Shown: positions 12,272-58,200 of the stretch, one piece after another
How positions within the stretch are numbered: position 1 is the stretch's first letter
How the letters are laid out: each line of letters starts with the position of its first letter
Origin: Saururus chinensis
Taxonomy: Eukaryota; Streptophyta; Magnoliopsida; Piperales; Saururaceae
Assembly (NCBI GenBank): GCA_035235625.1
Contig: CP141150.1
Coordinates: forward strand, 27,730,756-27,794,755
Reading direction: 5' to 3'
Length of the DNA: 64,000 bases
Program-made: the position numbers and the translations under genes
The notes under the pieces: generated by a model
Database searches by the model: none
Told to the model about the DNA's origin: nothing
The model's input: the letters and a program-made list of their open reading frames with translations, nothing else

Positions 12272-12276
12272 GTTTC

Positions 12277-17505: not shown

Positions 17506-17508
17506 CTC

Positions 17509-21469: not shown

Positions 21470-22153
21470 GACCCAAACCCTCTTCTTCAAGCACCAACCA
21501 GCAAGGGAGCGTATCCCTCTCTTGCACCACATCCAAGGGGAAGGAGAGGAGGAGATGGGAGGCGGCCAGCAAGGTTTTCACAAGAAAACCTAGAGAAGAG
21601 GGGGCTGAACCACAAGGGAGAGGGGGAGACAAATTGGGAGAGGGAGAGGAGAGGAGTGGGGCGGCCTGATTAGGGCTCCTCTCCCTCTTCTTTCCCTTTA
21701 AATACCCCTCCTCCTTCCCCTAATTAAGCTAGGCCTAAGTTGGGATTTTGGGCTTTCCTCAAATGGGCCATTCTGATTAAGTTTACATGCTTAGATCAAG
21801 AAGGTCAGACACAACAAGAGTGGGCTCTGTATCTCAGAGCCCGCGAAGGCCTGGACCCCCTACACATGGCTAAGCTCACAACAAGGTTGACCCCTCGCTA
21901 ACCACGGGTCCTACCATCAACACATAATTCGCACATCTGGGACCCACAATGTGTTAATGCACAACCTAGTCGAATGCCTAGTCTGCTTGTGTGACGTCGG
22001 TAGGTCCCAATTGAATTAGTGTAACGAAGGCACATGTTAGGTCGGTGCGACCACCCCCACCACCCTTGGACCCCGTGGCCTATACCGGTTCACCCGAACC
22101 GCAACAACATTGTACCAAACTGGGCCGAGACCGTACCATGGTCCAACAGTTTC

Positions 22154-27200: not shown

Positions 27201-27436
27201 CGGTAGGGTCCATGCCCTTAATTAAGGAAAAATTAAGATAAAATGTCATTAAATTGGTAAAAATTGGATAAATCAAGCTTAACACTAAAACTTATAAAAA
27301 TGAAATTAAACCGTAATAAAGTCAAACTTAACTAACTCATAACCATAAAATCAAATCAAACCGTCAAACAAGAAAAACCACACAAATTCACACAATTAAA
27401 AGGAATTAAATCAAAATTTAAATTAGAGATTTTACA
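24268..27436 (-). mobile_element. Solo LTR, family T1, reverse orientation (3169 bp)
   Basis: Plus-strand left end TGTCATGCCCCGG and right end GATTTTACA; in the minus sense it reads TGTAAAATCTC...CCGGGGCATGACA. The flanks AAACC (24263-24267) and AAACT (27437-27441) are a 5-bp duplication with one mismatch. It matches the LTR at 28293-34911 in inverted orientation across its length. No internal domain is attached. It holds about 60-bp tandem units near 24830-24970. Confidence 0.88.
24830..24970. repeat. About 60-bp tandem repeats inside T1 (reverse copy)
   Basis: Diverged units of about 60 bp repeat the words 'cataatcatgccacct' and 'gcatcatg' three times. The inverted counterparts are at 30780-31010 in the other T1 copy. 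Confidence 0.6.
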
Positions 27437-30779: not shown

Positions 30780-31010
30780 CATGATGCACAAGTGGCATGA
30801 TTATGTGCGTATGGAATGTGTTATACATCATGACATGCAGGAGACATGATTATATATTTATAGAATGTGTTTTACATCATGATGCAAGGGTGACATGATT
30901 ATGTGCTTATGGAATGAGTTATACATCATGATATGTAGGTGGCATGATTATAAGTTTATGGGATATGAGTTAAGTCATGATGTACCTGTGGCATGATTAT
31001 ATGTTATGGA
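30780..31010. repeat. About 60-bp tandem repeats inside T1 (forward copy)
   Basis: Four to five diverged units of about 60 bp, each with 'catgattat...tatggaatg' and 'catcatg'. They lie just before the TACTC-type block, in a position equivalent to the repeats in other LTRs of this window. Confidence 0.65.
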
Positions 31011-31666
31011 ATGTGAAATTATCTCATTATATACAGGTTTAGAGTATGAATATATGATGCATGTTTGGATTGAGAATGCATGCAATGTTTTCATGAGTTT
31101 ACATTCTGTATTAAAAACCCTTGTTATGCTAAGATCGCCCCTTTTTGTTTGTGGTTTTGTTTTGGGGCTGCATATTGTGTCATGCAAGTGCTTCATATCG
31201 GCTTTACGTTGAGCATGAGGACGTCCACATTCATTGAGAGGGGTTATTGTAAAGATTCTCATTCTTGAACCGGTTTTCTTTTCATTTTAATTATCAGTTG
31301 TCATGTGCTTAACACGTTTTCTAATTAACTCAGTGGTTTCAAAAATAAATGGTGTTTCTTATGGTTTTAATCAAAATCAACTTTACAATTATTGGTTTTA
31401 AGTGATTTTAGGTCAAACCTGAACTTTTGGGATTTTTCTAATTTTTAACTAATTTTTCAAAAATTAGGGTTTAGTGGGACCCTTGTGTGCCCCACCGGCA
31501 AAATTGAGGTTTTTGGACCAAATTAACCAGGTATCAACACAAGCTTTTATAAAAAATTTCATAATTTTTCCAGGTTTAATTAGTGCTCAAATGGTCAAAA
31601 TACCCATTTTTAGCCCAAAATTCTATTTATATCCCACTAGCTAATTATGTACACCCCAAGCCCTAC

Positions 31667-35079: not shown

Positions 35080-35748
35080 TAACAAGATATTCAATCCGCC
35101 ACCGATGTCCAGGTCTCATTAGTCCTCTCCTAAAGAACCTACAACCAACAAGACCAAACAACAACAAAATATCTCATCCCTTTTGGTGGAAAGTTTCCAA
35201 AATTATAAAAGTATTAATTAATATTATTCGATTGGGTCAACATAACCAAGATGCTAGCAACTCATTGGACAACATCTCCAATGTTATTTCCATCAAGATT
35301 GGATCTATATGTAGTTCTACCAAGAAGCTTCAATATCTCAAGAAGCATTACATCAAACATGCAATGCTTAAGTGTTTTAAACAAGCATACATTTGATGCT
35401 AGTCCTTTAGTCGTTCCACTTATTCTAATTAATCAATCAATAACAAGCAATTTCATTAATTATCCCACAAACCTTTGTTTAATAATTAATTACCCCGTCC
35501 AATCCAAATATAGACAGACTCATTAAATGTCAACATAAGTGACAAATGATATAACAAATCCATGGACCATCATTGAAAGGGAACCATCCATAGTGATGCC
35601 TTATAATTCATCGGGAAGTACCATAACCCAACCTAGCCCTTAAAGACTAGGTCAGAGTGGAAGGGTATAAGTCTACAACTGCACCTGAACAAAAGTAGTG
35701 GGAGAAGCCAACCAAGTAGGATGTCAGCTATCTGTATGCTTGTACACT
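35080..35748 (-). repeat. LTR E (family X), left segment, truncated
   Basis: Aligns with the first part of LTR C at about 45400-45800 ('caacatctccaatgt', 'catgcaatgcttaagt', 'cgttccactt' in the same order). The first 300 bp or so expected at the left end are missing, so it joins the preceding LTR debris without a clean end. It continues at 40172 after the G insertion. Confidence 0.75.
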
Positions 35749-37660
35749 AAATGTGTAATGTCCTTGATTTTTCTACGATTTTCTATGATTTTTCTGCTAT
35801 TTTTCTAGTCATTTTCGGCGAAAAAATGTGACGCTACGGCGTATTCATATTTATATATTTTTCCCCCGTATTTATACCCGTAGAGTCAGGTGTGGGGCTT
35901 AGTCGCAGGCCGTGGGCCTCGCTGCGCGCTTACGGTGCGAGTTTTGGAGGTACAACGCGTAACCAGTGAGTTAACGCGCATTAGGGATATGGATGTAAAA
36001 ATAAAAAAGGTGAATAGTGAAATCACGGCTTAAAAAGCCATCTTCAGTAAGTTTTTCCAGAAACTTATAGAACCGACATCCAGAAGAAAAAAAGACGTCC
36101 AGTAGTTTTTTTGGAGAAACCCGAGCTTGATTCCGGTCGCTCCGTTCTCCCTCCTCCGCCATCGGATTCTGGCGATTCTTGTCAGGATCTACTTTGCCTC
36201 ACCGCCACGAGTCCATAGACACCGGCTATGACCGCCGCCACGGCCTCTTCGCTCCTACACGAGGTACCGAACCTTTTTCGGGATTTTTCTCTCCTTTAAT
36301 CCCGTTTTTGAACTGTGGGTATACGATTTTGACATCGTTTGCGACCGCTCTCAACTAGACTTATATTTAGTTGGCCGCTAGGAACCCATAGGTGCTGGCT
36401 AGAGCCGCCGCCATGCTTTCTGCGCTCCGCTGTGAGCTGCCGAACTTTTAGCCGGGTTTTTATTCACATTCTTCATCTCACTGTCCGTGAGATTTTTTTA
36501 AGACGCTGGGATTTTCGGTCGTCGTCCGGCCACCGGTAGGACTCCGTCCAGCCTACCTCGACCCAGTGTCGGTAGGGGGTTGTCGTTTCCGACCCCGCCC
36601 CGCCTCTATTGCCTTGCTCCGCCCGATTAGACGCTTTGGGTGCGTCTCGGTTCGCTAGCATCGGCGAGTTGTGGGCCATTTGGCCATCATGGGCTCCGCC
36701 CCGGCTCGGCGACAGTGAGGGCCAACCCCACTTGGCCAATTACACCTCCGCTCGGAGTGGGCCGCTTGCCTTTGCCCTATACCCTGCGAAATGCACAGCT
36801 GCCCGCACCAAATGTGTTGGTTGTGGGTGGCAATCGGCGATGTCGCCGTTTCGATTGGCCACCACTTCCTGGCCCTAGCCCTGTTGGCCTTATGTGGGCC
36901 TTGGGTCGCCACCGTCTGACCCATCTCCCCCTATAGTGGCACTATTTGGCCGCGTGTGCATGTGGCCACGCGTGCATTTTTGGGTTTAGGCGCCGTATTT
37001 GTGCCGCCTGACCATCGGATGGCTTTGCCACCGAGTGGAGTTGACCACTAGAGTCCTCCTCCACCTCTCCACTGTCCTCGAGCGTTGCCCCATGCTCTCC
37101 GCCCTTATGTGGGCCTTTGTTGACCGAAATCGTCGCCATTGGGTGCTGTCCACGGCCGATTTCGACGTCTTGTGGCCGGTTGAGCACGTCTTAGCCACCG
37201 GCCGATCTTCAGTGAGTACACCATCGACTTCTGGTCGCACCGCCACTTATGTTGGCATGACATTTCTCCCGGCCGCCCTAGTGTGCCACCGTGGATTGCG
37301 GGTTTTGTCGCATTGATTTCTGACATCCCGTTTGGCCGTGATTGTTTCCGGCACTTCCTAAATCCTCGGGACGGCAGCTCTCTCAGCTAGGCAAAGCTTT
37401 TGGCCGCCAACTCCGCCGCCGATGCCGCCACTGTCGTGTGCTCGCCATCGAACGTCATGATTACGAGGTAGGGGAGCTTTGAACTCGTAAATTCATGATA
37501 GCATGCTTTAAATGAGTAGTAGCATGCTAGGATTGTGTGATTCCATGCTTTGGATGTTATGTAACGATCTGATTGCATAATGTACGTGTAAGCACGATTG
37601 TATGGTATGTCGAAATGCATATGGCATGCATGTTGGTTGTAAGTACGTTGGATGTATGTA

Positions 37661-37790
37661 TGTGCTAGTGATGGCTAGCGTGTATGTTGAAGTATGTATG
37701 AATGTGTGTGCATGTGCTAGTGATGACTAGCGTGTATGTTGGATGTATGCATGTGCTAGTGATGGCTAGCATGCATGTTCGTAAGTTACG
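37661..37790. repeat. Three 'gtgctagtgatggctagc' units in LTR G
   Basis: The phrase TGTGCTAGTGATGGCTAGC (one copy with one change) starts at 37661, 37713 and 37752, separated by GTATG-rich spacers. Confidence 0.75.
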
Positions 37791-38639
37791 TATGTATGAC
37801 CGTATGTGTATGTTATACGTATGTGGGAGACATACGTATGTATGATGGCTTTTTGCCTATGGTATGGATATGTGTAAGTGTATGTGGGCAGAGGTATGGG
37901 CGATGGACAGTAAGAGGTTGCAGAGGCTTTGTCTAAATTTGGATACGGTTGTGTAAGAGTATGTCAGATGACAGAGGATAAGAGTATGACGGGCAAGGAT
38001 TAGAATGGATCGGTTTGGGTTGGATTGTATGTTGGGCGATTGTCAGATAGTAAGAGTGTTCATAATTGTACAAGCATAACATACACATTATGAAGCGAAA
38101 AGTAAGCATAATCAGTGAGGTATTAAGTAAGAGGGTGACAATTGGGTTTGGCTCTGAGGAGCTTAGTATGATGACATTTGTGTACGCTGTTTTGGCCATA
38201 AGGTAGATGGCAGAGATGTAAGACTGTAAGATTTTGGTGTACGGTAAGTTTTGATCCTGATATGGACGAGGTAAGGAAGTCTGCTACCCTGACGAACTAG
38301 GGTTTCGATCAGGCTCATCATCGGTTTGATCAGTCGAGGACTGTGAGTTTGTGTGGCATAATTATACCGCATAATGTACTTAATTCAAACTTGAATTATA
38401 AGCACAGCTAATGATAGCGTTGTGAGTTTGAGACCTGAGAGTTCGACGGATTAAGTTCCATGTTTGAGCTAGCCGATAATGAGTCGGCTAAGCATTTATC
38501 ATGTCTTGCCATGGTGGTTATCCTGCGGGATGTTGTCTGTGTGCTGTGTAGAGCACCGGACATCTTTTGCTCTGTTGAGAGCGACGTATGTTTCCGTTTT
38601 GGTCTGTGTGCTATGTAAGCCCAGACGTTTGATGCTCTG

Positions 38640-38825
38640 TTGAGAGCGTTGTATGATTCCGCCCAAGAGTGGCACTGTATGTTTCTGCCCAAGTGGCACT
38701 GTATGTTTTTCTGCCCAAGAGTGGCACTGGCACTATAAGACCCATTATGGTGGGCCATTGTATGGCACTATAAGACCCCTTATGTGTGGGCAATTGTATG
38801 ACCCCTTATGTGTGGGTGTATATTT
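38640..38825. repeat. Short tandem duplications in LTR G
   Basis: 'gcccaagagtggcactg' occurs three times with small changes (38658-38730). 'accccttatgtgtgggc' is then duplicated (38775-38820). Confidence 0.6.
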
Positions 38826-38999
38826 GCGCGCTCAGGTAAGTAGTATCATGGACCTACTCTTACCTGTTTGATCCTGTGCCCCATGAGCACTGGTGTGCCT
38901 TACCTTCGGAAAAGTCCATGGCGTCTAGTCACTCCCCGGAGGTTAAGGTGTTGCCCTAGTGACATTCTTTTCCATTGCGACGCTGGAGCTTATTAGTTG

Positions 39000-39400
39000 T
39001 AATGAGCTTCAGTGGTCGTTGATATGTGTACGATTATGAGTTTGAGTACGACTATACGATTATGAGTTTGAGTACGACTGTAAGTGTATGAGTATGAGTA
39101 CGACCGTATGAGTATGAGCACGACTGTAAGAGTATGAGTACGATTGTAAGAGTAAGACTGTAAGCATATGAATCCGAGCAAGACTGTAAGTGTAAGTTTC
39201 AGAGTAAGACTGTAAGTGTAAGATGTGCGAGTAAGGTCGCACGAGTAAGTGTAAGCTGTACGAGTAAGGTCGTACAGGTATGTGTAAGCTGTGTGAGTGA
39301 GCATATGATTGTACGAGTAAGGTCATACAAATATGCGTATGTTGTATGAGTATGCGTGCGATGGTACGAGTAAGTTTGTAAGACCCTGGATAAGGGTGTT
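39000..39400. repeat. GTA/AGTATGAGTACG-type tandem array in LTR G
   Basis: Diverged units of roughly 20-25 bp built on 'gagtatgagtacgactgtaag' variants repeat more than ten times. The array explains the Tyr/Ser/Thr-rich open frames on the minus strand here, which are not genes. Confidence 0.7.
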
Positions 39401-39430
39401 TGTGTAAGTTTCTTTTGATGGTACGATTTT

Positions 39431-39514
39431 GGCACGATGGTGCCTTTGGTATGTTTTTGGCACGATGGTGCTTTTAGTATGTTTTTGGCACGATGGTGCA
39501 TTTGGTATGTTTGT
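39431..39514. repeat. 28-bp x 3 tandem repeat in LTR G
   Basis: GGCACGATGGTGC starts at 39431, 39459 and 39487; the period is exactly 28 bp with few mismatches. Confidence 0.85.
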
Positions 39515-40171
39515 ATGCGTATGAGCATGATATTGATATGCCTATCTGCTTCATGTTTGAGTTGCATGAACGCATGTTTTTATGAACTTATTGAGTTCAC
39601 CGTTTGGGATTTCCCCTACTGGGTATTTTCCTACTGAGTATGAAAATACTCACCCTACCATTTTTAGCCCCGTTGTACGGGAGGTTTTGCAGGTTGTGTG
39701 CAGAGCTCCTGGAGATGGATGCTCATTTCAGCGGAGGATTGATTCCCGTTGACTCAGGTATATGTTTGACTCACTACGAGTTTGTTTGTGCCACGATCCG
39801 ATGTATTGGGTGAGATGAGATGTTAAGACGTTTATGTTCTGGACTTTCATTTGGATTAGTCTGTGGACTGTTATGGGACTTGCACTCAGGGATGCTTGGG
39901 AGTGTTTTGTATTTAAAGTCTATGATCATAGCGAACTTAGTCGTACGTGTGTTTTCGAGTAGCGCCTGATGATATTTGCTTTGGCCGTATGATGTTTGAC
40001 CGTGTGATGAAAATATTTAGATAGAAAATGGATGTTTAGTGTTTTGAATTATAAACTGTTTTATCAGGTTTTGATTTCGTCATTTTTACTCCGATTTACA
40101 GACGTTATATTGCAAAAATTTTCCATGAATTTTGAGGAAAATGTGTGAAAAATCTCGGGCGTTACAAAATG

Positions 40172-40789
40172 ATCCTGAATAGATTGGTCGTGAGCAATGG
40201 CTCACGCAGAGCTCCCCCAAATGGGGAGGTGCAACAAAACTGCCAAATCACAAGCTCCTCAATAGAGCTAAGACTTAGAAAATTCATTCTAAAGCCTATC
40301 AGTGCTTGTCCAACAAGCAAAAATTCAGAATAACTACCCAAACCCTATTAGTATCTTTGAGACCATGCTCAAGACTCAGAAATGTCATCAGTTCATTAGC
40401 CAATGCAAATTGTTAGGTCAAGGGCCTTGTTCATTCTATGAACTAGTCGTAGACCCCTCTGTGAGTATTTTAGTCTTTATCTTGATTAGGTGTTCTTGCC
40501 CAATCTAAAGTTATTTATTCCCCATTGATTAATCTTTCGTTAATCTTAAGCTAGTGATATATTATTATTAAAACATCAGTAGCAAACATTAAAACAATGA
40601 AAATGTAATTGATATGGACCCACACAAGTCTAAATGAATCGTATTACTAAGACCCAAATTAAATTATGGCATTAGAAAGCTCCATGCTCTCGAACCCTAA
40701 ACCTTGGGTTATGAGCATCTACTTTTTTTAAAACGGGTTATAATGTCCTTAAGGGTATTAGTGTAATTTTTCCACATAGGGCATAATCC
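40172..40789 (-). repeat. LTR E (family X), middle segment
   Basis: Continues the family-X LTR after the G insertion. It matches 48690-49250 (LTR D) with the phrases 'ctcctcaatagag', 'gggccttgttcattctatg' and 'atcttgattaggtgttc'. It is cut at TCTCC by the short-LTR gypsy element. Confidence 0.8.
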
Positions 40790-40794
40790 TCTCC

Positions 40795-41055
40795 TGTTGT
40801 AGATCGATGTCTACACAAGACAATTAGAGAGAAAGAGATAAGAAAAACAACTTAGAGACAAATTAAAATAATATAACTTTTGAATCTGGTTTCTCAATGC
40901 CTAATCTTCTCTGAATTATAGAATATATACGGAAAATCTAAACTAATCCTAATGGAACTATGAAACAATAATTAATCCAATTCTAACTAAAGAAAGAGTC
41001 TAAATATTAGGAATTAGACTAAAACAAGAATCTAATCTAATTTAGGGTCACAACA
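40795..41055 (-). repeat. 3' LTR of the short-LTR gypsy relic (261 bp)
   Basis: Shares with 52296-52559 the phrases 'cgatgtctacacaaga', 'tttctcaatgcc' and 'ctaatggaacta'. The adjoining minus-strand GCAGGGTGGAA at 41056-41066 acts as polypurine tract. Confidence 0.88.
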
Positions 41056-41187
41056 TTCCACCCTGCATCGACTTGTCCTTAAGGCAACTACTTTTCCATG
41101 GCTTGAAACATTGGATGGATGTCATTGACTAGCATAGCTAGATCGGCATCAAATTTGGCTACTGGTTGGTTAGGGCATCAACAATAT

Positions 41188-41421
41188 TCATATGGAGAGA
41201 CTTACATTGGTGGCCAAAAATATATTTCTCGTCACAATTGTAGCATAATCCCTTTTTTGGCCAGCATCCATTTCAGCTTGTTTAAGCTTTTTGACCAGAA
41301 TAGTTGGAAGAGAAGAGGTAGGAATAGGAGATGCAGTAGTGGGGGTAAAGGACAAATGAGAGGAAGAAGTATGCCCTTGTTGTGCTAATTTTTCCTCACT
41401 TATGTGAGCCATACGCATCAT
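41188..41421 (-). pseudogene. Gypsy gag C-terminal fragment with zinc knuckle
   Basis: Minus-strand reading gives ISEEKLAQQGHTSSSHL and LVKKLKQAEMDA, the run-up to the zinc knuckle in plant gypsy gag. The knuckle itself (CYNCDEKYIFGHQC, about 41203-41245) lies in a neighbouring frame, so a small indel has broken the reading frame. The DNA then runs directly into sequence typical of the 3' end of the element, meaning protease, RT and integrase are deleted. Confidence 0.7.
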
Positions 41422-41450
41422 TTATGTCAAGGAATGCCCGGCGGCCGAAA

Positions 41451-41600
41451 GAAAATGGGGGAGGGACAATGCGGCTATGTGGCAGCACCCAAGCACCATT
41501 CAGGGTCTGCGTGCGCCCCCTCCTTCGACGAGCCCAATGGCTGGTAGAAAATGGGGGAGGGATGATGCGGCTATGCGGCAGCACCCAAGCACCTCTGGCG
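41451..41600. repeat. 95-bp partial tandem duplication in LTR A
   Basis: GAAAATGGGGGAGGGA followed by ATGCGGCTATG...CAGCACCCAAGCACC starts at 41451 and again at 41546. LTR D has only one such unit. Confidence 0.75.
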
Positions 41601-42106
41601 TGATGTGGCGGAACTTCCGTAGGGATGAAAGGGTACGGGAGACGGAATCCGGCGATAGGGAGGTCGGCTAGCGGCAGGCAAAAAATGACAATTCTTTTTA
41701 CACCCCGTCCTCTTTCTATAAGTAATATATACAACCCATCCAATTAATTCAATATTAAGCTTAAGGAGAATTGGTTTATTTTGCATTCTTACCTCGCCAC
41801 CACTGATCTTTGAGCTTTTTCATCCTCCCCATGTTTGTCGTTGACCGGACTTGCAGGAAACTCCTTCGGTGACCCCCTTCTCTCTGTCTCTCTCCCCCAC
41901 CTAATGCTAAAAGCTCCCCCAAAAGAAGCCCTAGGTGGCCTTTTTATAAACATGGGAATTGGGAACCCTAATTCCCAAAGAAATTTGACCAAGGTGGACC
42001 ACTTGGGCAATATTTTAATAATTCCCATCACTCTAAATAACTGGGCCCACAAAACGATCTAAACGGCCCAATAACATGGCAAAATTGGGTAAACGACACT
42101 ATATGA

Positions 42107-43499
42107 TAATGCATTGAATTAATGCTCAATTAAATGTTTCACATTTCAAATTACAATCCTCTTTTGTGTTAATTCATTGCTTATTTGGGCTATTTATGTT
42201 TTGAATAGGTTAGTTGGACCTTAATTGAGTTTACATGTCTAAACAGGCTTCAACAGGATCCAACTGGAAGAGGAAGTAAAGCCTAACTACCCAAAGCTAT
42301 TTAAAAGTCGAGAATGGGCACCTAATAGTCTAAACATGAATGGAATGGTCGAACACAACCTTGATTTAAGATTTGTATGAAGAGAACTAAATTAGGAAAG
42401 AAGCTGATTCAGACAGATTGACACAAAGTTAGTATTTCGACCATATCTTTCTATGTATAATTCGGATTGATATGATTCTCATGGCATTGGAAAGAATACT
42501 TCCGTAGCTACAAGTGTTATTTCAGGAAGAAATTCCAAATTCTGAAGATATATGGGTTGAATCTGGCATGCAATCAAACAGCTAGTTAACTAACCCGAGG
42601 CTAGCTCATGGAAAATCTTTTCATTGATTGTGATTGATACACATAAGGAAAGACAATGAGGCTGATTGGATATCTAAAGGAAGATTTAAAGATACTTATT
42701 TGCTAAATAAATCATTGATTTATGTGATTGATTTAGTATCTAATCATTGCCAAAGAAGCAATCAATCAGGATGCAATCTAGAGATATGATTTCACTTTCC
42801 TCTTTGAAGCAACCCCTTCTATTCCTATAAATAGAGGGGTGGATGTGATAGATGGATAATCTCCTCCTCTTTGGAGCTCTCTTCCCCTATTTTATTCTCT
42901 CATTTTATATTTTTATTTTTAGTTTTATTGTAATGGCTTTCTAAGCTCTCAAGCTAAGGCTAGAGGTGATTTGTAACAATCTAATGGAGTTCAAGTAAGT
43001 ATTCTTTATTTAAAGTAATGTTTATTTAATATTTTTCTTCTTCTTATTTTTTTGTGATTTGGATACATAAGATGCTTAAAGGCTCTCCTTTTTTATCTTT
43101 TGTGATTTGGATACATAGAAATCTTTAAGAGACAATTGTTTTTATCCTTCATCTATCCAAAACATTTCTATCTTTATTTTTAATTTTAATGTTCATATAT
43201 TCTGGTTAGATAGAATCTTCATTCGATTCTAACTCAGATAACATGATACATGAAGAACATCATTAGATGTTACAATGATCCTTAATGCCTTAGTGTTTTC
43301 TCATCTTGATTTCTTTACTCTATATTGCCTCAATACTCTTTTATTCTTTCTTTCTTAATTTTTCCTTTTTCTATTTCTTCGTAACCATTTTCTTTGTTGC
43401 ATAAGGCTTTCCTTGTGGATCGACCTTATCTACTACAATTAGCAAGTAAAATAAATCTGAATTTGACTTCTTCATAGTCTTCATTTAGACGTAACAACA
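42107..43499 (+). mobile_element. Solo LTR S1 (1393 bp) nested in LTR A
   Basis: Exact 5-bp repeat TATGA at 42102-42106 and 43500-43504. The element starts TAATGCATTG (probably a mutated TG) and ends AACAACA. TATA box TATAAATAG at 42826-42834. The end region has the 'ccttgtggatcgacc' phrase found near the end of many plant LTRs. Removing it makes LTR A continuous with its relatives. It carries no coding domain. Confidence 0.75.
42826..42834 (+). promoter_or_regulatory. TATA box of solo LTR S1
   Basis: TATAAATAG followed by AGGGGTGG; a strong match, oriented plus. Confidence 0.55.
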
Positions 43500-43723
43500 T
43501 ATGACATGTTCAACTTTGAATAGTCATAAATCCCTCATCCGAACTCTGATTTGTGCGTTCTTCATGGAGTTTTGAAGCTTTTTCTGTCTACTTTCTAATT
43601 GCATTTGTTCCATCTATAAATTCCATCCATTCAGGAATTTATTCAACCGAGGAGATTAGGGGGTCAACATACTATTTTTTATGTGTTTAATTTTTGAAAC
43701 CTTGAAAAATCCGGGATATTATA

Positions 43724-44100
43724 CTCCCCCTCCCCCTAAAAAGAATTCCGCCCTTGCAATTTTCCACTACCAATCCTTGACAAGCTTGGCCTTCAACTCT
43801 GAGACTCAATCTACCCTCTCTAGGGTTTCGCACTAATCCCACTCGAACTTCAACTTTTGTTGCCCTATTCATTTTAAAGAATCACTACTCAAGGACGTAT
43901 CCCTAGGACGTAAGTACTGGAGTTACGTCCTATGCCAAAAGTGTTTAATTGTATCTCTTCAACCATTCTACAACCCTTCTGAGCAACTTACCTAGGGTTC
44001 AACAAATTTATAGAGTCTACCTCAAACCACCAACTCAAACTAGGTCATAATCTTTAGATGACTTCAGACTTGCAGTTAGAGGAGTACCTCAGCTACCAAC
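43724..44100 (-). mobile_element. Internal domain of element X1: 377 bp, non-coding
   Basis: Left edge: polypurine tract (minus-strand AGGGGGAGGGGGAG) against LTR A. Right edge: primer-site relic TGGTAGCTGAGG (minus) against LTR D. No open frame of note. It aligns throughout with the 473-bp internal domain at 44626-45098, for example 'tctagggtttc', 'taatcccactcga' and 'ttcagacttg.agttaga' in the same order. Confidence 0.8.
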
Positions 44101-44524
44101 TGTCACGATCAGGACTTTCAAAACCCTTTTAAATAAAGGAGAAGCGATAAATCATGATAATTTTTTTTTCTTTAAATCAAATCAAAGCAAATCAATTGAC
44201 TAGATATCCATGTCATGATAAGTAAGGTTCACAAATACGAATATCAAAAGATATGATATAATTACACATGTCAAAATTCGATAAATAGCAAGTTAACCCT
44301 CTTAGTACAAATTTGTCATCCATCTGAAAATAAATAACTAAGTAAAATTGGTTCTCAAGCCAATAATTATAATTACTTGCATAATTGTAGAAGTAAGAAA
44401 TTAGATCCCACTAGTGCAACGTTGTCCTCAACCGCTCATCAACGTCCTGATCTCGCTAGTCCTCATCTAAAGATCCTACAACCAAACAACAATGAAACAA
44501 CTCCTCACCTTGGAGGAACGTTTC
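44101..44524 (-). repeat. LTR D (family X), first segment of 5' LTR of element X1
   Basis: Starts TGTCACGATC directly after the X1 primer site and follows the start of LTR C (45099 onward) for about 400 bp. It then jumps at TTTC (44521-44524) into the end part of a family-X LTR, marking a deletion junction. Confidence 0.75.
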
Positions 44525-44625
44525 TTACTGATGACCAAGTTATTATCACGGGAATATCAAGGGGTCCTACACCCTAATTTCCCCGTTTACGACTTCGGGA
44601 ATTTAGAAAATTCTCGGATATTACA
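44525..44625 (-). repeat. LTR B remnant, 3' LTR of element X2 (about 100 bp left)
   Basis: 'ttactgatgaccaagttattatc' and the following bases match the last 100 bp of LTR C (48586-48684) and end in ATATTACA against a polypurine tract. The other 3.4 kb or so of this LTR is deleted. Confidence 0.75.
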
Positions 44626-45098
44626 TTCTTCCCCCCTAAAAAGGAATTGCGTCCCCGCAATTCTCCAAAGCCAATACTAAATAAGTTTGGCCCTGAAGGG
44701 CACCCTTGCCCCTTCTAGGGTTTCACATTAATCCCACTCGAGCGTCAGCTTCTGCTGCACACTCAAGTTAAAAGAATCACCACTAGGTAACATAACTTAG
44801 AGTGTGCACGTAAATATACCTCTATGTCAACCCTAGTACACACGTCCCATACCATGAGTATTCGTGACGCCATAGAAGCAAATTTAACTAAGCACCAGCA
44901 AAACAAACCTTAGAGCTATCCATCGACATAACGTGTCCCATACCACAAGTGTCTAATGGTTTCTCCTCGGCCGTTCCACAGCTCTTCTGCCATGAACACC
45001 TAGGGGTGCTTCTTACCCAAAACCCATCCACCTCAACTAAATCATAAATTTTCAGACATCTTCAGACTTGTAGTTAGATAAATGGCTCCGATACCAAC
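44626..45098 (-). mobile_element. Internal domain of element X2: 473 bp, non-coding
   Basis: Left edge: polypurine tract (minus TTAGGGGGGAAGAA). Right edge: primer site TGGTATCGGAGCC (minus, 45084-45096), close to the tRNA-iMet site. Near the tract the minus strand has 'gaattgcggggacgcaattcc', also found in X1 in diverged form. No gag or pol motif and no open frame over 60 codons. It is about 100 bp longer than X1's domain through one extra block in the middle. Confidence 0.82.
45084..45096 (-). promoter_or_regulatory. Primer binding site of element X2
   Basis: Minus-strand TGGTATCGGAGCC differs from the canonical tRNA-iMet complement by one or two bases, two bases inside LTR C. Confidence 0.75.
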
Positions 45099-48000
45099 TG
45101 TCACAACCCGAATTTTTAAAAGCATTTTTAAATAGCACGAACGGTAAGTAGCGATAAATTTTTCTTTTTCTTTAAACACAAAACAAACCATTCGATTAAA
45201 TATCTAGGTCATGATAGCTGGGGTTCACAAATATGAATATTAAATCGTATAATATTATTATGCGTCTGAAAATTCATAATGAATAGCTCATCCATCTAAG
45301 TACAAGTCCATCGTCCGTCTAAAAATAAATAATAAGTTGACTCTCACGCTAAAGGTACACAAACATACCGGAGTTGCAGAAACGTAACAACTTCTTCTTG
45401 TGCTCGCCTGTCTTGATCTCACTTGTCGTCGCTTAGAGAATCTACAACCAAGGAAACCAAACAACAACACAACAATGGAATCTCTCTGCCCTTCAGCAGA
45501 TGAGCTTCCAAAGAACAAAAGGTTTTAATAATATTATTCGGATCGGGCCAACATCACCCGATGTTAGTTGCCTACGTACTCATCAAACAACATCTCCAAT
45601 GTTTCCAACAAGATCAGATCCAGACGTAGTTCTGCCTAGAAACTGCTCTATCCTAATAAGCATAGCACCACACATGCAATGCTTAAGTATTTTCAACCTA
45701 TATTTTAGTAAGTTCTTTAATCGTTCCACTTGTCTAATTAACAAGCAACAACAAACAATGTTATTAATTATCTCACAACTCTTGTTCGACAATTAATACG
45801 ATCAAATCTATAACTCGGAGATGACTCGCCCCTCGAGAAATCCCCAACCAAGTACTCCAACCTTGGAGTAGACTGCTTAACAGCAGCTTAACCCAAATCC
45901 CCAGGGCTCTCAATAGCCTGCCACGAATCTGGGGAAGAGGATCCCAACTGTGCTCATGGACACAGATTGGCGAGAAGCACAAGCCTTCTATGATGCTCAT
46001 ACAACTCCGCTTTTCGTACGTATTAAATAGTCCTGGGAAGACCTGTGGGAGACCCGCGGTAAAGACCCTCTGGTCAATACCTAAACTGTCGTGGCGATGA
46101 AGAAGCATATCGCAATCTCCAGCATTATCCATATAAGCCTCAGGTCCTTATGACCATTGACTCAGCCAAACATCTGAACTTAGACTAGATTATTTTCATC
46201 CAGTCAAAGTATTCACTCAACCATTTGGGTCCTCTTCACCTTGTGAATCGGCCCAATAAATAGCTCATCCACTGAGCTATGACTCGAAGAACATCCCGTA
46301 ACCATCCTCGGTTCATTAACCAAGGTAAAATTCTATGTCAGGGCCCCGTTCAATCCATGAACCGGTCCTAAACCCTATTAAGGGTATTTTAGTCTTTATC
46401 TTGATTAGATGTTCTCCCCCAATCCAACGGCAACCCATGTCTCTTGATTAAACCTCATTAATCTTAAGTTACCGATATACATTAAAGCATTAATAATAAA
46501 AGCATACAACAACATAATCCACATAATTAACGTGCATTCACCAATGCATAAATAATAAATAAGGGCCCGTTGCACTCAATTGCAGGGCTAGGGCTTAGCG
46601 AGTTCAAGCCCAAGAGGATAAACAACTCTAGCACATCCTTTGAGTTACAAATTAAATACTCTAGCTGATCGATGTACTCGGTTGCAGACACGAGTAATCT
46701 ATTGCCCTAAACCTTGAGAATGAGGGTCATTCCTCTTGTTTCCCGTGACACTATGACTTGACAAGGTCTTCATGTCTCTTTCTGGTCACACCCCTTCCTT
46801 TTGAAGCCAATTAACATCATTCTAGGGCACCCTAACGCTTGGTTGCTAGGTTATTCGTTTTATCGAAAATAGAACATACCGCCCCCTAAGGGCATTATGG
46901 TAATTCCACCACGACTCCCTTGATTCATTCTAGTCATTTTACTGCCCTTCTATTAATTTAAGTTATTGACCTCTCACAAAGCTCCATTCTCAGACTGACT
47001 CACGCTTCTATTCACACGAATGTGGGCGGGTCCACTCTAAAGGGTATTTCTATCATTTAAGGCCTTAATGACATACGATGTGTCCAAAATTAAATTCAAG
47101 GGTACTACTAGAATTCATGGACTCTGTGTAATTTTCCTAGCGTATGACGGGGTCGTGAACCCCTTGAACCGACCCAGGTTTTGACTAACGGTTTACTATA
47201 AACCCTAAGGACAAAAGGGTCAATTAACTACTCACTGGGATTTTTCCTCACCAAAAGGTTTGTTCCATAATTAGTTTACCCATTAAACTCTCACTGAGAA
47301 TTTTCTCAATTTTTAAATCAACTCCTAGGCCCCTGAACTAGGGCCTCGAACTCGGGTAAGTGATTTTCACACGATGATTTAACTATTAGGGGTAGAAAGG
47401 TCATTTTATAATCTTTGGGATTTTTCCCCAAGATGAAACTTGGTCAAAGTAATCATAAACCTCTCCAGGTATAATAGTAATTTTATAGGATTTTTTTGAC
47501 ACAATTAACCCCCTGAACCGGATCCAGTTCAGGGAATATAATGGTTCTCTTCTTTTAAAAAAAAAAACAAGACCGGACCAGATCGGGTCAGCCGACCCGG
47601 TCCGGGGGGGAACAGACGACCCGCGCGGGGTCGTTTTCCCCGCGACCGGCCAGAGGCCAAACGGCCTCCAGTGGCGCCGCTTTTCCCCCAGTCGTCCCGG
47701 AGGGCGAGGCCGAGGCCAGTCGGATCGCAATCGCCTGGCGAATCCAACGGACTCGGTCTTGCCTCCGTCTGGTGGTTGGCCGGGGACAACGCGGCCTCCC
47801 TTTTATTTTTTTTATTAACTGCGAGGTGGTAGCAGAAGATGCCGCCGCCGATGAGACAACCGCTGCCAGGGCTGTAGCAGCCCAAGCTGCTGCATCCGGG
47901 GCCGACGCAGCCCAGGCAGCCGCAGCCAGGGCAAGTGCGGCCGGACCTGCGCAGCCCCGCCCTGTCCCTTTCTCTTTTATTTTTGGATCTGTGAATCGGC

Positions 48001-48684
48001 CCGGCGGCCTATCCGGCGGCCACCACATGCCGGATCCTGATCCTCTGCCGAGGGAATTCAGTGCATGAGGACAGGCCAGTCACTGACCGGCGGCCGGCCG
48101 GCAGGATCAAAACAAGGTACTAAAATTACCTCAGAACGCACAGTTATGTAAATTATGAAATACATAATTGCAGAAGTCATAATACATTAAAATTTATTGT
48201 AATGATTTACTAATTTCGACTTAAAGGCCTACCTTAATGGCCGGAAAACTCTCTTGGCCGCTCGTTTTCCTTCGCTCCAAAAATCCCTTTTCTCTCTTTT
48301 TTTTTTTTAAGAGCCCTCATTAATTCTTTTTATAGGCATGGGATTAATCCCATGAGAAATTAGGCCCCCAAAAACCCAATTTCGGAATGCTAAATAATAG
48401 GACCCACAAAACGATTTAAACGGACAATTCGCGCGTTCAATTCGGGTAAACGGGTCCTGCACGTTATGGTCAACTTCGAACGGTCGTATCTCCCTCATCC
48501 GGACTCTGATTCACGCGTTCTTGGTGGCGTTTCGAAGCTCTTTTTGTCTATTTTCCATCCATATATGATTCAGCTACCATTTCTTACTGATGACCAATTT
48601 ATTATCACGGGAATATCAAGGGGTCCTACACCCTAATTTCCCCGTGTATGACTTTGGGAATTTAGAAAATTCCCGGACATTACA
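45099..48684 (-). repeat. LTR C (family X), 5' LTR of element X2 (3586 bp)
   Basis: The fullest family-X LTR in the window. Plus-strand left end TGTCACAACCCG, right end CCCGGACATTACA. TATA-like CCTATAAAAAG (minus) at 48327-48337. A GC-rich, Ala-codon-like repeated block lies at 47810-47960. The 98-146 codon open frames here are by-products of that block. The right flank AAATG is taken as its target duplication; the left copy is lost in the deletion at 44524. Confidence 0.82.
48327..48337 (-). promoter_or_regulatory. TATA-like box of LTR C
   Basis: Minus-strand CCTATAAAAAG about 350 bp inside the LTR start. Equivalent 'ctttttataaac' words occur in LTR A and LTR D. Confidence 0.4.
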
Positions 48685-50777
48685 AAATGATCCTCAATAG
48701 ATCGGTGGTGAGCCCAGCTTATGAGAGCTCCCTCCAATGGAGAGGTGCAACAACACGACCAAATCAATAGCTCCTCAATAGAGTAAAGACTCATAAAAAC
48801 TATTTGGAACCCTATCTTGCTCGTCAACAAGCAAGGATTCCAAATGACTATCCCAAACCCTTTCAATCCCATCTAGACTAGGGTTAAAACTCAAAACTAC
48901 CATCGGTTCATTAACCAAGGGAAATCGTCAAGTCAAAGGCCTTGTTCATTCTATGCACCAGTCTCAAACCCCTCTAAGGGTATTTAAGTATTTATCTTGA
49001 TTAGGTGTTCTCACCCAATCCAAAGCCATCTAACCCCATTGATTAATCTTAAGCTAGTGATAAATTAATATCACAACAACAATAGCAAACATTAAAGCAA
49101 ATGAAAGCATAAATAATATAGACCCACATAGGTCTAAACAAATCATAATACCAAGGTCAAAACTCAATTATAGCTCTAAAAAGATCCATACTATTATGCC
49201 CTACTCTCCTCATGTTAGGAGGTGGTACCTAAGGGCATTAGGGTAATTTTCCTACATGGTACATGGTCCTCTCCATTCTTGGGTATGTCTTTGACCTCTT
49301 AATAGGTTTCAATATCAAAATGGCCCATTAATTCCATTTACACGAATGCGGGCCGGTCCGCTCATAAGGGTATTTCTGCCATTTTTTTAAGGGCTTCCCT
49401 AATTGTAATGAGTCCAAAACTAATCTTAGAGGTAATCCTTGGCATTATGGACCCAGGGTAATTTTCTTGCCATTTAACGAGGTCTCTAACCCCTTGAAAC
49501 GACGGTAGTTTGTACTATGGTTCACCATTGACCTAGGGGAAAAATAGTTAGTTATTAACTTACTAGGATTTTTTCACAACATGTGACTTGGTCTATATCT
49601 GGGGTACACATACAAATATCACTAGAATTTTCCCCAAATATTAACTTTACTATAGGCCTCTGAACTGAGCCCCTAAATCTGGTAATTAAATATCACACTA
49701 TGATTCAACTACAAGGGTAAATTGTTTATTTCATAGCCTATGGGAGTTTTCCCCATGCTAAAACTTAGTCAAAATATTGTCCATACTCTCATGGTCATTT
49801 GTAATTTTTTTTTGAATTTCTTTGACTATTTTAACTCACTAAACTGGACCTAGTTCAAAATTATTATTTTTAGTTTGGACCGAACTTGGCTGAGACCAAA
49901 ACGGGCTGGGTTATTCTACCCTGTCCTAGGCCCGACGATCAACATTGCAAGTTGTCTTCCTCACTGTCGGCCAGAAGCCTGCTAGCCTCTGGCGGCACCT
50001 CCTCTGGCTGCCACGACTAGGTGGGGGCTTGGGCAGTGTGAGACCGGCTCTGTGCGATGGAATCAACTACCTTGGCCCTGTTGTCGTTCGGTGGCCGGCT
50101 AGGGCCAAAGGTGTCTTCTTCTTTTTTATAGACTGACGATTTAATGGTAGAAGTCGTCCCCTCCAAGACCACTGCAGCAAGGACCGCAGCAGCCAAGGCT
50201 TGCGTCCCCTCCCCCTCCTTCGATGGGGAGGGGTGATGCAGATATGTGGCAGCAGCCAAGCACCTCTAGCGTGACGCAGCAGAACTTTCACCAGGGCGAA
50301 AGGGTACGGGAGGCAAAATCCAGCAACCAGGCGCCCTGCTGGCGGCGGGCAAAAAATAACAATTCTTTTTACACCCCTTCCTCTCTCTATGATTCATATT
50401 TATCTCCCACCTTATTAATTCAATATTAAGCTTAAGGAGAATTGGTTTATTTTGCATTCTTACTTCGCTGCTTCTAGTCTTTGAGCTTGCTCATCCTCTC
50501 CTCTCCATCTCCATCTCTGCTAGACTTTCCATAAACTCCTTCAGCGACCCCCTTCTCTCTCTTCCCCCCCCCCCCCTCCCTGAGGCCAAAAGCTCCACCA
50601 AAATAAGCCCTAGGTGGCCTTTTTATAAACATGAGGATTATGAACCCTAATCCTCTTAGAAATTTGGCTAAGGTGGACCACTTGGGTAATATTTTAATAA
50701 TTTCAGTTGCTTTAAATAACTAGGCCCACAAAATGACTTAAACTGCCCAAATACATGTCTAAATTGGGTAAACGGGC

Positions 50778-51924
50778 TGATAAGTATAATTTATATGTTA
50801 TTTTACCCTTAATTATTCTATTTTCTAGTCTCATTTAAGAGTTTATATAGGTTAAATAATTAGAAATTAAATTTAATTAGGTTAGAAAAAGCTTCTATGA
50901 TGATTTGAATTAAATTGGCTTATTTTACATATTCTTCATTGGCGTTCGAATGGGGTCACTTACTGTTTGATTGGGATAACGTGATTTTGAAGAAAATACA
51001 AGCGTTCGAACGGGATAACGCGCAGTTTCCTAGTTTAAGTCAATTTTGAGTCCTTTTCATATAGAACTTCTTCTTACGGTTCTTATGCCTATATAAAGAC
51101 ATATTTGGCTCAAAATTGAAGGTTAGCAAGTAGATTTTATGAAGAGAAAAAAGAAGAAGAAGATGGAGAAAAACTCAAAGCTTTCAATGGAGATTCAAGT
51201 GCTTTCTTCTACAATGGAAGGCTAAACTTTTCTTTTACTTAGGAGTTGATGAAGCTATAGATAACTTTCAGTTTCTTTTCTTTTTAATTTAGATCTCAGT
51301 TGTGAATTATGACAATTGTATGATAAGGATTTCCTTTTTAATGGAAGAGCTTTTCATGTTTATTCAAATCTATGTTGATTTATTGTCTTGTAGATGATAG
51401 ATTGATGTGGTTTTGATATTTGCATCAATTCTAATTTCTGTGATTTAGATGAGATGGTCATGCAATAGTTTTAATGCTCAGATAATCAATGACTTAGATG
51501 AGTTATACTAAGATTAGACAGGTCATGCCTATAACTAGTTTAGTGTAGATGATTCGTGCTATTGTCGAAGATAGTTCATGCCATGGAATTTAATTAATGA
51601 TTCTTTCTGAAGTAATTCTAGCTTGTAGCTGAGAATACTTGTTCATATTCACACTAGATTTAGATTAAAAGTTAAGGAATTGTTATGGTTCTATAGTGGA
51701 TTTGATTTCCTAAGTAAATTCTATCATATTAATCTCTTGTTTTTAAACTAGTTGATTATTTTCTTTTGCTTAATTTAAGTTTAAGTTCTTTCTAGTTTTT
51801 AATCAACAAATTCCTCTTTAGATTTAGTAATAATTTATCCGTCTCTAAGGTTCGATAACCCTTAAATACTCATCCTAGTACAATTACCTTGTACACTTGC
51901 AAATTGTTTAATTATAAACGATCA
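50778..51924 (+). mobile_element. Solo LTR S2 (1147 bp) nested in LTR D
   Basis: Starts TGATAAGTAT and ends AACGATCA. The flanks CGGGC (50773-50777) and TGGGC (51925-51929) are a 5-bp duplication with one mismatch. TATA box TATATAAAG at 51090-51098. GCGTTCGAA words lie at 50942 and 51002. The end contains 'aggttcgataaccc', a common plant LTR ending. No coding domain. Confidence 0.78.
51090..51098 (+). promoter_or_regulatory. TATA box of solo LTR S2
   Basis: TATATAAAG, about 310 bp from the LTR start, plus orientation. Confidence 0.5.
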
Positions 51925-52156
51925 TGGGCCCCTGTATGATATGTTCAACTTTGAATAGTCATAACCCTCATTCGAACTCCAATTTACGCATTCTTGTTGA
52001 CGTTTTGAAACTTTTTCTATCTACTTTCTAATTACATTGGTCTCAACTATAAATTTTATCTATTTTGGAATTTATTCAACTGAGAAGGTCAGGGGGTCAA
52101 CATATTATCTTCTACATGCTTAATTTTTTAAACCTAGGAAAATCTGGGATATTACA

Positions 52157-52295
52157 TGATGGCGAGCGGGGGAGGACTCAGAGACAGACACATCACGAAG
52201 GGTAGAGGAATTTGTAGCCGTGGAGGGCAGTCGACTTTTCTATCGCAACTGACTAATGGCAATAGGAGGTCCAAAATCAAATGCTATGATACCAG
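52157..52295 (-). mobile_element. 5' leader remnant and primer site of the short-LTR gypsy relic
   Basis: Minus-strand TGGTATCATAGCATTTG (52278-52294) is a tRNA-Met type primer site one base from the 5' LTR. About 120 bp of leader remains before LTR D cuts it off. Confidence 0.75.
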
Positions 52296-52559
52296 TGTTC
52301 GATGTCTACACAAGATAAATTAGAGATAAAAAGAGAAGAAAAATAACTGAGAGATAAATTAAAATAATCTAATTTTTGAATCTGATTTCTCAATGCCGAA
52401 TCTTTTATAGAATATATAGAAAAAATCTAAATTAATCCTAATGGAACTAGGAAACAATCATTAATCGAATTCTAACTAAAGAAGAAGTCTAACTATTAAG
52501 AATTAAACTAAAACAGGAATCCAATCTATTCTAATCTAATCTAATTTAGTGTGACAACA
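52296..52559 (-). repeat. 5' LTR of the short-LTR gypsy relic (264 bp)
   Basis: Starts TGTTCGATGTC and ends GTGACAACA; same length class and wording as 40795-41055. The following TCTCC completes the target duplication. Confidence 0.88.
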
Positions 52560-52564
52560 TCTCC

Positions 52565-54000
52565 ATTCTTGTGTAAGTCTTTGACCACTCAAGAGGTTTC
52601 ACTCTCATATTGGCACATTGATTCCATTCATGGGAATGTAGGCTAGTCCACTCATAGGGGAATTTTTATCATATTTTTTAGTGTCTTCTTGAACTCCAAT
52701 GGGTTCAAACCTCATATCAGGACTGCTCCTTGATGTCATAGACTCATGATAGTTGTTTAGACATTTTATGGGGTTATCAACCCCTTGAACTCACCTTAGT
52801 TCACTCTATAGCTCACACTCAATCCTAAGGGTAAAATGGTCAATTATCTGGTTACTGAGATTTTCCCCCATTATGTGACTGGTTCTAAATTTAGGGTACA
52901 TACTTACCTCTTACTTGAATTTTTCTCAATCTTTAAGTCCTCTCATAGGCCCCTAAACCAGTGCCCAAGTTAGGTAATTAAATACTATACTAAGGTTCAC
53001 TACAAGGGTAAAATAGTCATTTCATAGCATATGAGAATTTTTCCAGGTTGAAACTTGGTCAGGAATCTCGAAAAACTCCCATGGTCCAATGGCGATTTTT
53101 TACAATTTTTTTTATTATCTGAAGCAACCACGGTTCAATGCTTTCTCTCTTTATTTATTTATTTTTTTGGACAAACCAACTTAGACCTCGGCCAGGCTTA
53201 GCCAGGCGGGGTCCTGGCCAAAGCGGGTCAGGTCACCCTTGACCCAAGCCCAATGACATGCTTTTTTGGTTGTCTTCCCCACAACCGCTAGAGGCCCACT
53301 GGCCTCTAGATATGCCGCCATGGTTGGGCACACGACCAATGCCTACCCATTATTTTATACACCCCTTCATCCCCCTCAATTTAATATAAATAGACCAACT
53401 CTTTCAATCAACGCTAAATTGGACTATATCTATGGAGAATTGGTTTATTCACATATCCTACCTTGAGTATCAGGTTGTTGTTGATCCACAATAGGCTGAG
53501 CTCCATCGCCAACCATACTAGCCAAAAAATTCTTCCAGCCTCTTTTTCGTCTTTCCTCCCTCCAAAGTTTCAAAAGCCCCTTTTTCAGAAGCCCTAGATG
53601 GCCTTAAATAATTAATGGGGATTAGATTCCTAATCCTTAATGACTTTGAGCCAACTCAACTTCCATTAAGCAGCCTACTTGGCTCCTAAACCTATTTATG
53701 TCACTTTAATTAGTCAGACATGTATAGCACATGAAACGGCCCATTTACGTGTCTAATTTAGGCAAACGGGCTTTACAAATAATATTCAACTTTGAACAAT
53801 TATATCTCCCTTATCTGAACTCCAATTTGCATGATCTTAGTAGTATTTCAAAGTTTTTTCTGTCTACTTTCTAACCTCATTGGTCTCGGCCTTAAATTTT
53901 ATCTATTAAGGAAGTTATTCAAATAATAAAATTAAAGAGTCAAGTACATTATTTTTTATATAGTTAAGTTTTAAATTTTAAAAAAATCCCAAATATTACA
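52565..54000 (-). repeat. LTR E (family X), right segment
   Basis: Continues exactly where 40789 stopped ('ctccattcttg...taagtctttgacc', cf. 49274 in LTR D) and ends AAATATTACA at 54000. It is not interrupted at the site where S1 and S2 landed in A and D, and so shows the empty site ('aaacgggctttacaaataat'). Confidence 0.8.
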
Positions 54001-55614: not shown

Positions 55615-55910
55615 TAGTTTATGTTAATGGTGATTTCATGAAGACAGACAACTAATAAAGAAGATTCTTACACTACAAACATAAGAGAAGTTACAACAAA
55701 GTCTTCAAAGAAGTTGAAAAAACTCACAGGTAGATTAATAATTGAAGAATGAGTCTTTAATTTAGTTTATGTTAATGGTGATTTCATGAAGACAGACAAC
55801 TAATAAAGAAGATTCTTACACTACAAACATAAGAGAAGTTACAACAAAGTCTTCAAAGAAGTTGAAAAAACTCAAGGGTAGATTAATAATTGAAGAATGA
55901 GTCTTTAATT
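55615..55910. repeat. 148-bp tandem duplication, two copies
   Basis: Copy 1 is 55615-55762 and copy 2 is 55763-55910. They start TAGTTTATGTTAATGG and end GAGTCTTTAATT. The only differences seen are two adjacent-region bases (CTCACAGG versus CTCAAGGG), so the duplication is recent. Confidence 0.95.
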
Positions 55911-58200
55911 TAGTTGTTAGAAGAAGACAAATGGGGAACATGAAGAGGAAAACTTCAAGGTTTCATGGAGGGAGAAACTTGAAGGCCAACAATAAAAATG
56001 GCTGAACAAAGAGAAATAGTTTTCATTTGTGTCGAGTAAAAAAAGGTTGATTAATTGTTCTTAGTGTCTTATAATTTCTTACATACTAGTGCATTGATTT
56101 GACCTTATAAGGTTGACATAATTTTTTACCCAAGTTAGGTTTTCACGTTAAATCATTTTGTTCATATGCGTTTTGCATATTTAGGTTGATTTAATATTTG
56201 AGAAATTGATAGATAATGCATATAGACATTAGATTTTAATTGTTTTTGTTATATAACGCATAGAGGCTAGAACTATTAAATCTTACTTGTCGAAGTACTA
56301 GTTTTAAGAGCAATCTAAGTTATCATTTAGGTCAATTAAATAGATATTAAACTCTCAACTCTTACCACTGATATACTAAGCTATTTTAAGGCTTTATGGA
56401 TGTGATAAAGAGAGAATTTCTCAGAGTTTTTGGTAGAAAACTCTTGATTTTTATTTTAAGAGAAGATTGAATTTTATTATTCAAAAGGGAATGTCTTATC
56501 ATGTTGAATTTTGAAGCATGAACTTATGAACATGATGCATGTTTATAAGAGCATAATCATTAAAATTGCATAAGAATGCTTTCATCACACATCAATGAAC
56601 TTACAAAGAGATTTGTCATTTGAAGAGTAAGTAGAAGGTCATTGCATTCATTGGAAGACAAAGCCACTCAAGGAGAAATTGATGGAGTAGTGGCACATAA
56701 TTTGCGGAGTACTTGCAGATAGCCAAATAGTTGGGTCGGGAGTACGAGTAATTGATTTGATAATTGTGTCATTATGTTCTAAAATTTGCTTTTTTAGTGC
56801 CATGGCTAATCGGTGGAGAGTTGGACTTGTGGTTTTTTATAGGGTATTCCGTATTAAAAAATTGTTGGCATTATTTGCTTTATTTTATTTCAAATTTAAT
56901 TACTAATTGCGTGCTAAATTACGTGTATTGTGATTTAGCCTATTGCCTTTGTATCTCTTTTAATTGAATTAACCTAAACCTCTTAACTTTGTAATTTATA
57001 TGTGGAATACTATTTTAAGTCAATGGTCATCAAGGTTTTGCCATCTCTTAATAACTTGGCAAATAGCTTAGTTATAAAATAACCCTAATTTTCATCTATG
57101 CACCACCTAGAGAATAATTAGGTTAGGTAATTAGGGATGAAATTTTTATGAGCTGGCTCATAAAAATGCCGGTTAGGGTAAAAACGTTTTAGCCCTTAGG
57201 CTTAAAATTCTAAAGCTTGCTTTAAAAAGGGTTGACTAAGGCTATGGTCCAAAAAGTCCGCAGACCCATTCAATCCATTTTCAAGTATAAACAGGATTAT
57301 TTTAATTTTTTTTATAGTCTCATATAGCCCAAAAGGTAAGGAGAAAGAAAAAAAATTTATATTTTGAAAAATTTAGGACTTAAGCTTGCAAGTGATGGTG
57401 GTTAGTTGTAAAGAGGCTAAAGACATATAATCGTGTGTTTTATTAGGTCAAATAGTTGAACCTTATCCAAACATTATAATTTTTTATTAAATTAATTATT
57501 TAATAAAAATAATAAAATACAAAATGAAAAATATCCCCTGGTAATGTTGGGCTAGGGCTGAAATTTTAAAAGTCAGGGCCTCAAAGACTGAATGGCTAAG
57601 ACTACTCCAGACTCAACCCTATTTTAACCTTAAAGGTAATTAAAGACGTTGCCAATTTTACGTACATATTAATTAAAATTATGTAAAGGGCTTAGGGCAG
57701 TTTAAGAAATAACAAATATAAGTAGAAGCCTAAGGATAATCTGGTAATAAGCAACAAAAAATCTATTGTACCTCTTTCTTTTAAAATAAAATAAAAAACT
57801 CATAGACCTACCCCATAGCCCAGCCCCACACTTTCGTCTCATGTACATGAGCACAAATCGAACATGAGACAAGGAAATGTCCCATCGAGCACGCTAGAGC
57901 TAGATTGACTCCTTCCAACCAAATTTAATACTAATATAGTATAATAAAGTTAAGAGCATGTGATAAAAACATAAAATTAATAAAATTGACAATTTAATAA
58001 AAGATAATTATTATTTTATGAGGGGACTATTGTCTTGTTAATTTTTTTCTTAATTAATTCAATTTACATGGCTTAGAAAAAAAAGAAAAATTTATGAAAA
58101 GGTTCTTGTACTTAATTTAAATTTCACTTTAGTCCATTCGTTATTTTTGTTTTTGTATTAATCTTTTACATGTATGTAAATTTTTTTCAACATATAAAAA

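Follow-up and report, generated by a model that had tools for sequence, protein, structure and literature searches.

Probable non-autonomous LTR retrotransposons of one lineage, one nested in the other, with long LTRs and near-empty interiors in Saururus chinensis

A stretch of 64,000 nucleotides from Saururus chinensis (NCBI GenBank assembly GCA_035235625.1, contig CP141150.1, positions 27,730,756 to 27,794,755 of the forward strand; hereafter the window, whose own coordinates are used throughout) had been predicted to hold, at 43724–48684, a single undescribed family of non-autonomous long terminal repeat (LTR) retrotransposons with LTRs several times longer than their interior. On the basis of LTR comparisons, we read this span as parts of two elements, the second of which (element 2) is nested in the 5′ LTR of the first (element 1), a nesting that the original prediction missed. 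Most probably, the two are non-autonomous LTR retrotransposons that inserted independently and share a lineage derived from a gypsy chromovirus resembling Del/Tekay.

Comparison of the window with itself identified five copies of one LTR lineage, denoted B, C, D (two pieces), T and AE (three pieces) and lying on the minus strand, as do all parts of elements 1 and 2. LTR C (45099–48684; 3586 bp, TGTAATGTCC...GTGACA, with TG..CA ends) is the 5′ LTR of element 2; along its length, blocks match the other copies in colinear order. T (44521–44625) is what remains of the 3′ LTR of the same element; it matches the start of LTR C at 94.3% identity, and the rest of this 3′ LTR is missing. Element 1 retains both of its LTRs, although damaged, whereas of the LTR that paired with C only these 105 bp are left. 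LTR B (41430–43723), the 3′ LTR of element 1, is truncated at its left end, a boundary placed approximately by eye (the BLAST match to D begins at 41458), and carries an insert at about 42105–43494. LTR D, the 5′ LTR, is divided into its U5 end to the left of the element 2 insertion (D1, 44101–44520) and a remainder to the right (D2, 48685–52156), which starts with AAATG and carries a separate insert at about 50780–51934.

Across the U3 ends of the five copies, C–T (94.3% identity) and B–D (82.9%) are the closest pairs and the remaining eight of the ten pairs fall at 54–70%, with C being 65–67% identical to B and D (B–C, 66.5%); T therefore pairs with C, while B and D form the pair that flanks the interior of element 1. 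In BLAST blocks, B and D are 77.5% and 82.4% identical. D1 and the adjoining T differ sharply in their identity to C, with 83 mismatches in 364 positions for D1 (77% identity; 77.2% by one aligner and 71% by BLAST) and 6 in 105 for T (Fisher p = 3e-5), and so derive from different insertions. LTR C terminates exactly at its TG inside LTR D, which resumes beyond C. Because element 2 transposed separately, into an LTR of element 1, its interior and that of element 1 are not one duplicated deletion event, a possibility that the original prediction had itself raised; its view of the short interior as a shared trait, not a local deletion, is supported by the two independent insertions. A single family, however, is not what the LTRs suggest: under the 80% identity rule for LTR families, as quoted in the available text of PMC2533021, the U3 identity of C to B and D would make elements 1 and 2 two families of one lineage.

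At the junction between T and D1, the bases TTTC (44521–44524) can be assigned to either side, and the segment of AE at 35192–35753 fills the place that is missing from D. This fits a deletion by TTTC microhomology in which the 3′ LTR of element 2 lost most of its length and D about 0.56 kb, a size taken from AE.

The interior of element 2 (interior 2, 44626–45098; 473 bp) runs from a primer binding site (45085–45096), matching at 11 of 12 bases the sequence TGGTATCAGAGC, which we take to be the tRNA-Met-type primer consensus and used to score primer sites, to a polypurine tract (44626–44637; AGGGGGGAAGAA) that abuts the 3′ LTR start, TGTAATATCC. The interior of element 1 (interior 1, 43724–44100; 377 bp) likewise extends from a primer site to a purine tract, as predicted; the tract is clear (AGGGGGAGGGGGAG), whereas the primer site is decayed (TTGGTAGCTGAGG) and was missed by a scan allowing two mismatches. 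Recomputed coordinates and lengths of LTR C and both interiors agreed with those first given, and LTR C is 7.6 times the length of interior 2, in keeping with the predicted disproportion. A TATA box lies in LTR C (48327–48334), 350 bp from the LTR start, with aligned counterparts in D (50627) and B (41948); no matching TATA box was seen in AE.

As had been predicted, the two interiors align from one end to the other, bar about 110 bases that interior 1 lacks (local score 97, compared with a maximum of 28 among 300 dinucleotide shuffles). The BLAST blocks that match between them cover about 175 bp on the primer-site side and about 160 bp on the side of the purine tract. The claim that neither interior is coding was likewise upheld: stop-free stretches reach at most 57 residues across the six minus-strand frames of both interiors, and none of the three protein pieces from the interiors matched Pfam, in a scan of nine pieces (three from the interiors, three from LTR C, two from copia fragments and one from the surrounding element R). 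Two LTR C pieces gave no Pfam match and the third a sub-threshold one (E = 0.53; bit score 9.4, cut-off 25.3). By stop-free stretches and Pfam pieces, gag and pol were not recognised in either interior, apart from possible last codons. The reading of element 2 as a non-autonomous LTR element is supported.

Those possible last codons are the wording ENCGDAIPF-stop, found directly before the purine tract; presumably it resembles the ends of chromovirus pol, and it lends the predicted chromovirus descent the support of a hint. The elements are like Del/Tekay chromoviruses in LTR size range, in their TGTAA start and in a GC-rich stretch, which in LTR C lies in the half towards U3. Del uses a tRNA-Met primer. 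According to the available text of PMC4029996, Del LTRs measure 1143–4831 bp, so that no special origin has to be invoked for an LTR of 3.6 kb, and eudicot Del is reported to be without a CpG island. Unlike Del/Tekay, the elements here have no gag-pol or chromodomain left for a phylogenetic placement; of the reverse transcriptase, integrase and chromodomain, no pol domain appeared in the protein pieces scanned beyond the ENCGDAIPF-stop scrap.

Elements 1 and 2 are held within a further gypsy-type element, R (40795–52559, minus strand), which has LTRs of about 260 bp (40795–41055 and 52296–52559), a TCTCC target duplication (40790–40794 and 52560–52564) and a primer site with one mismatch (52283–52294). 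Joined across TCTCC, the two flanks of R give a sequence that LTR D carries without interruption, and R split AE, a more ancient LTR from the lineage of B, C and D. The U3 part of AE lies at 52565–54000 (minus strand) and its other parts at 40167–40794 and 35091–35753; within the last of these, only 35091–35490 aligns to C or D, and the remainder is assigned through an AAATG duplication. AE is also split by a probable solo LTR (35754–40166, plus strand; 4413 bp, TGTAATGTCC..GGCGTTACA) with the AAATG target duplication on both sides. The portions of R itself (40795–41450 and 52157–52559) contain a CCHC-like gag scrap near the left LTR, and no pol was seen in them; the scrap, which we take to be gag from the wording CYNCDEKYIFGHQCK, had no Pfam match, and R may once have been a gypsy derivative that carried gag alone or had undergone deletion.

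Among other explanations, it is possible, if somewhat doubtful, that the elements belong to a long-LTR family already catalogued for the source species, which would be compatible with two independent non-autonomous insertions; the architecture has been published, in the Medicago element Mtr77 (PMC2533021, available text). It is unlikely that two full-length chromoviruses each lost gag-pol separately after insertion: different deletion junctions are conceivable inside the spacer of about 110 bases that only interior 2 has, but both interiors keep the same matching flanks, neither has any recognised gag or pol beyond the possible last codons, and two independent deletions would hardly end at matching places. 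A single LTR–interior–LTR–interior–LTR tandem array produced by recombination, as described for terminal-repeat retrotransposons in miniature (TRIMs; three LTRs and two interiors, PMC4717578, available text), is very improbable, for although the left-to-right order B, interior 1, D1 plus T, interior 2, C would suit it, the mutual LTR similarity that we would expect is absent (D1–C, 77%; T–C, 94.3%), B is nearest D and not C, and LTR D resumes on the far side of C. A duplication was also considered and set aside on the LTR pair identities and the T/D1 junction.

Several points weigh against two independent insertions of one chromovirus-derived lineage. The evidence consists of the copies within the window. 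The identity of the two interiors varies by aligner (77.5%; 67% with LTR edges; 68–72% in BLAST blocks), and the left-side target duplication of element 2 is uncheckable because of the deletion there. The published Del U3 end, TGTAACACCC, matches TGTAATGTCC at 7 of 10 bases and TGTAATATCC at 8 of 10; it is given as common to sorghum and maize Del in the available text of PMC4029996. By plain identity, the LTRs of R (86–89%) look younger than B–D (77–83%), though R is necessarily older, and only transversions bring the two level. Lastly, the solo LTR in AE (40167) and element 2 in D (48685) sit at the same alignment position, at AAATG, for which a hot spot, gene conversion or chance may each account. 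Two further inserts, at 42105 in B and 50780 in D, are no more than a few bases away from this position.

Transversions number 13 in 246 (5.3%) between the LTRs of R, whose boundaries in this count differ by up to five bases from the coordinates above, 43 in 759 (5.7%) for B–D and 2 in 105 (1.9%) for C–T, a divergence that plausibly places the insertions in the order R, element 1, element 2. The too-young appearance of R by plain identity would reflect C-to-T decay in LTRs; D2 and the U3 part of AE, unlike C, are mostly low in CpG.

Structure, nesting order, the lack of detectable coding and the shared interior can be seen in the DNA, while the steps of mobilization are ones that we infer from established LTR-retrotransposon biology. 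The lineage would have lost gag-pol and kept LTRs of about 3.0–3.6 kb, the purine tract and a leader that includes the primer site. Element 1 would have inserted into R, and element 2 later into LTR D of element 1, after which the TTTC-microhomology deletion would have cut both the 3′ LTR of element 2 and D. Transcription would begin close to the TATA box, which lies 350 bp inside the LTR, giving an RNA with about 3.2 kb of R-U5, followed by primer site, interior, purine tract and U3. This RNA would be packaged, reverse-transcribed from initiator tRNA-Met and integrated in trans by the proteins of an autonomous chromovirus, such that Gag, reverse transcriptase and integrase would be supplied by another element. 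By one aligner the interiors and the LTRs are similarly diverged (77.5% for the interiors and 77.2% for D1–C), which suggests that interior and LTR probably travelled together; in other alignments the interiors are 67–72% identical, and C shares 65–67% with B and D at its U3 end. A common ancestor already without gag-pol would be the simplest history for the shared short interior. More tentatively, a protein-free chromovirus lineage may have replicated until it formed at least two families, all the while keeping an interior of less than 500 bases between 3-kb LTRs, in which case LTR and leader would be the selected parasitic unit.

RNA folding was compared with shuffled sequences. Interior 2 was more stable than its shuffles (z of −6.2, −6.1 and −5.8 in three runs), whereas interior 1 was not (z = 0.63); 40 random windows gave a background mean of −1.0 and a lowest value of −4.35. 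The opposite strand of interior 2 reached −5.8, other tiles of element 2 went down to −6.2 and the nearby solo LTR averaged −2.2 and −2.9 on its two strands (nine tiles each), and because of these low values we do not claim a functional RNA in interior 2. In a consensus fold of the two interiors, 8 of 77 pairs had changed on both sides and yet been kept, two sequences being too few to weigh this. Over the whole of element 2 (44626–48684), 473-base tiles had mean z of −3.1 and −3.2 on the two strands (eight tiles each). Older copies fold less stably (means of −1.6 over four tiles and −1.3 over three), with the solo LTR intermediate.

Elsewhere in the window are an inverted repeat of about 3 kb (24603–27436 and 28293–31250; 75.8% identical), two units of a 148-bp tandem repeat at 55615–55915 that are 98% alike and probably recent, and repeated segments at 12276–13277 and 19409–22148 (89–91% identical). 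Fragments of a copia gag and pre-integrase region lie at 16915–18335 (minus strand); both copia pieces matched Pfam, and one copia open reading frame had no protein homologue at E 0.001. No tRNA was found and no Rfam family reached its gathering score. In viral contigs the purine-tract pattern had no matches; the leader pattern occurred in seven, which we took as chance.

With large retrotransposon derivatives (LARDs; for example, Sukkula), the elements share an absence of coding, a total length above 4 kb and an assumed mobilization in trans. They have two LTRs, a primer site and a purine tract without gag-pol, and they pass the LARD length rule of at least 4 kb (PMC2533021, available text), LTR C and interior 2 alone amounting to 4059 bp. 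LARDs are, however, described with a core domain (PMC7215508, available text), and in place of a large non-coding core the interiors here measure 377 and 473 bp, less than 0.5 kb. In consisting of a primer site, a short non-coding stretch and a purine tract, they are instead like those of TRIMs, from which the elements differ in LTRs of about 3.0–3.6 kb. In the available text of PMC4717578, 225 of 289 TRIM subfamilies are below 1 kb and 197 of 289 have LTRs below 250 bp, and the elements exceed both the usual TRIM size (<1 kb) and that of the length rule in PMC2533021 (<4 kb, available text).

Sorting by total length alone would file such elements under LARDs and hide their emptiness. The available text of PMC10025401 gives PlantLTRdb a minimum inter-LTR distance of 1000 in LTR_FINDER and reports no LARD or TRIM; this setting may drop elements of the present shape. 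The architecture is not undescribed, as had been supposed, since Mtr77 of Medicago truncatula, published in 2008, already combines long LTRs with an interior of about 0.2–0.3 kb (PMC2533021, available text, as for all that follows on Mtr77); in the open-licence PMC literature, as far as its available text extends, we found no other precedent. Mtr77 is abundant and non-autonomous, with LTRs of 2191 bp in an element of 4668 bp, leaving an interior of 286 bp by subtraction (about 200 bp in the text); the last two columns of its table entry, 5 and 26, we read as full-length copies and strong hits. It was classed as a LARD by length and assigned to neither Copia nor Gypsy. Like Mtr77, the present elements are non-autonomous, have LTRs several times the length of the interior and occur in more than one copy (here as two independent insertions); unlike them, Mtr77 has LTRs about 1.4 kb shorter, and the likeness is one of dimensions. 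Elements 1 and 2 are thus probably a new example of a published design of long LTRs around a near-empty interior, to which they add chromovirus-like ends and a nesting that reveals separate insertions.

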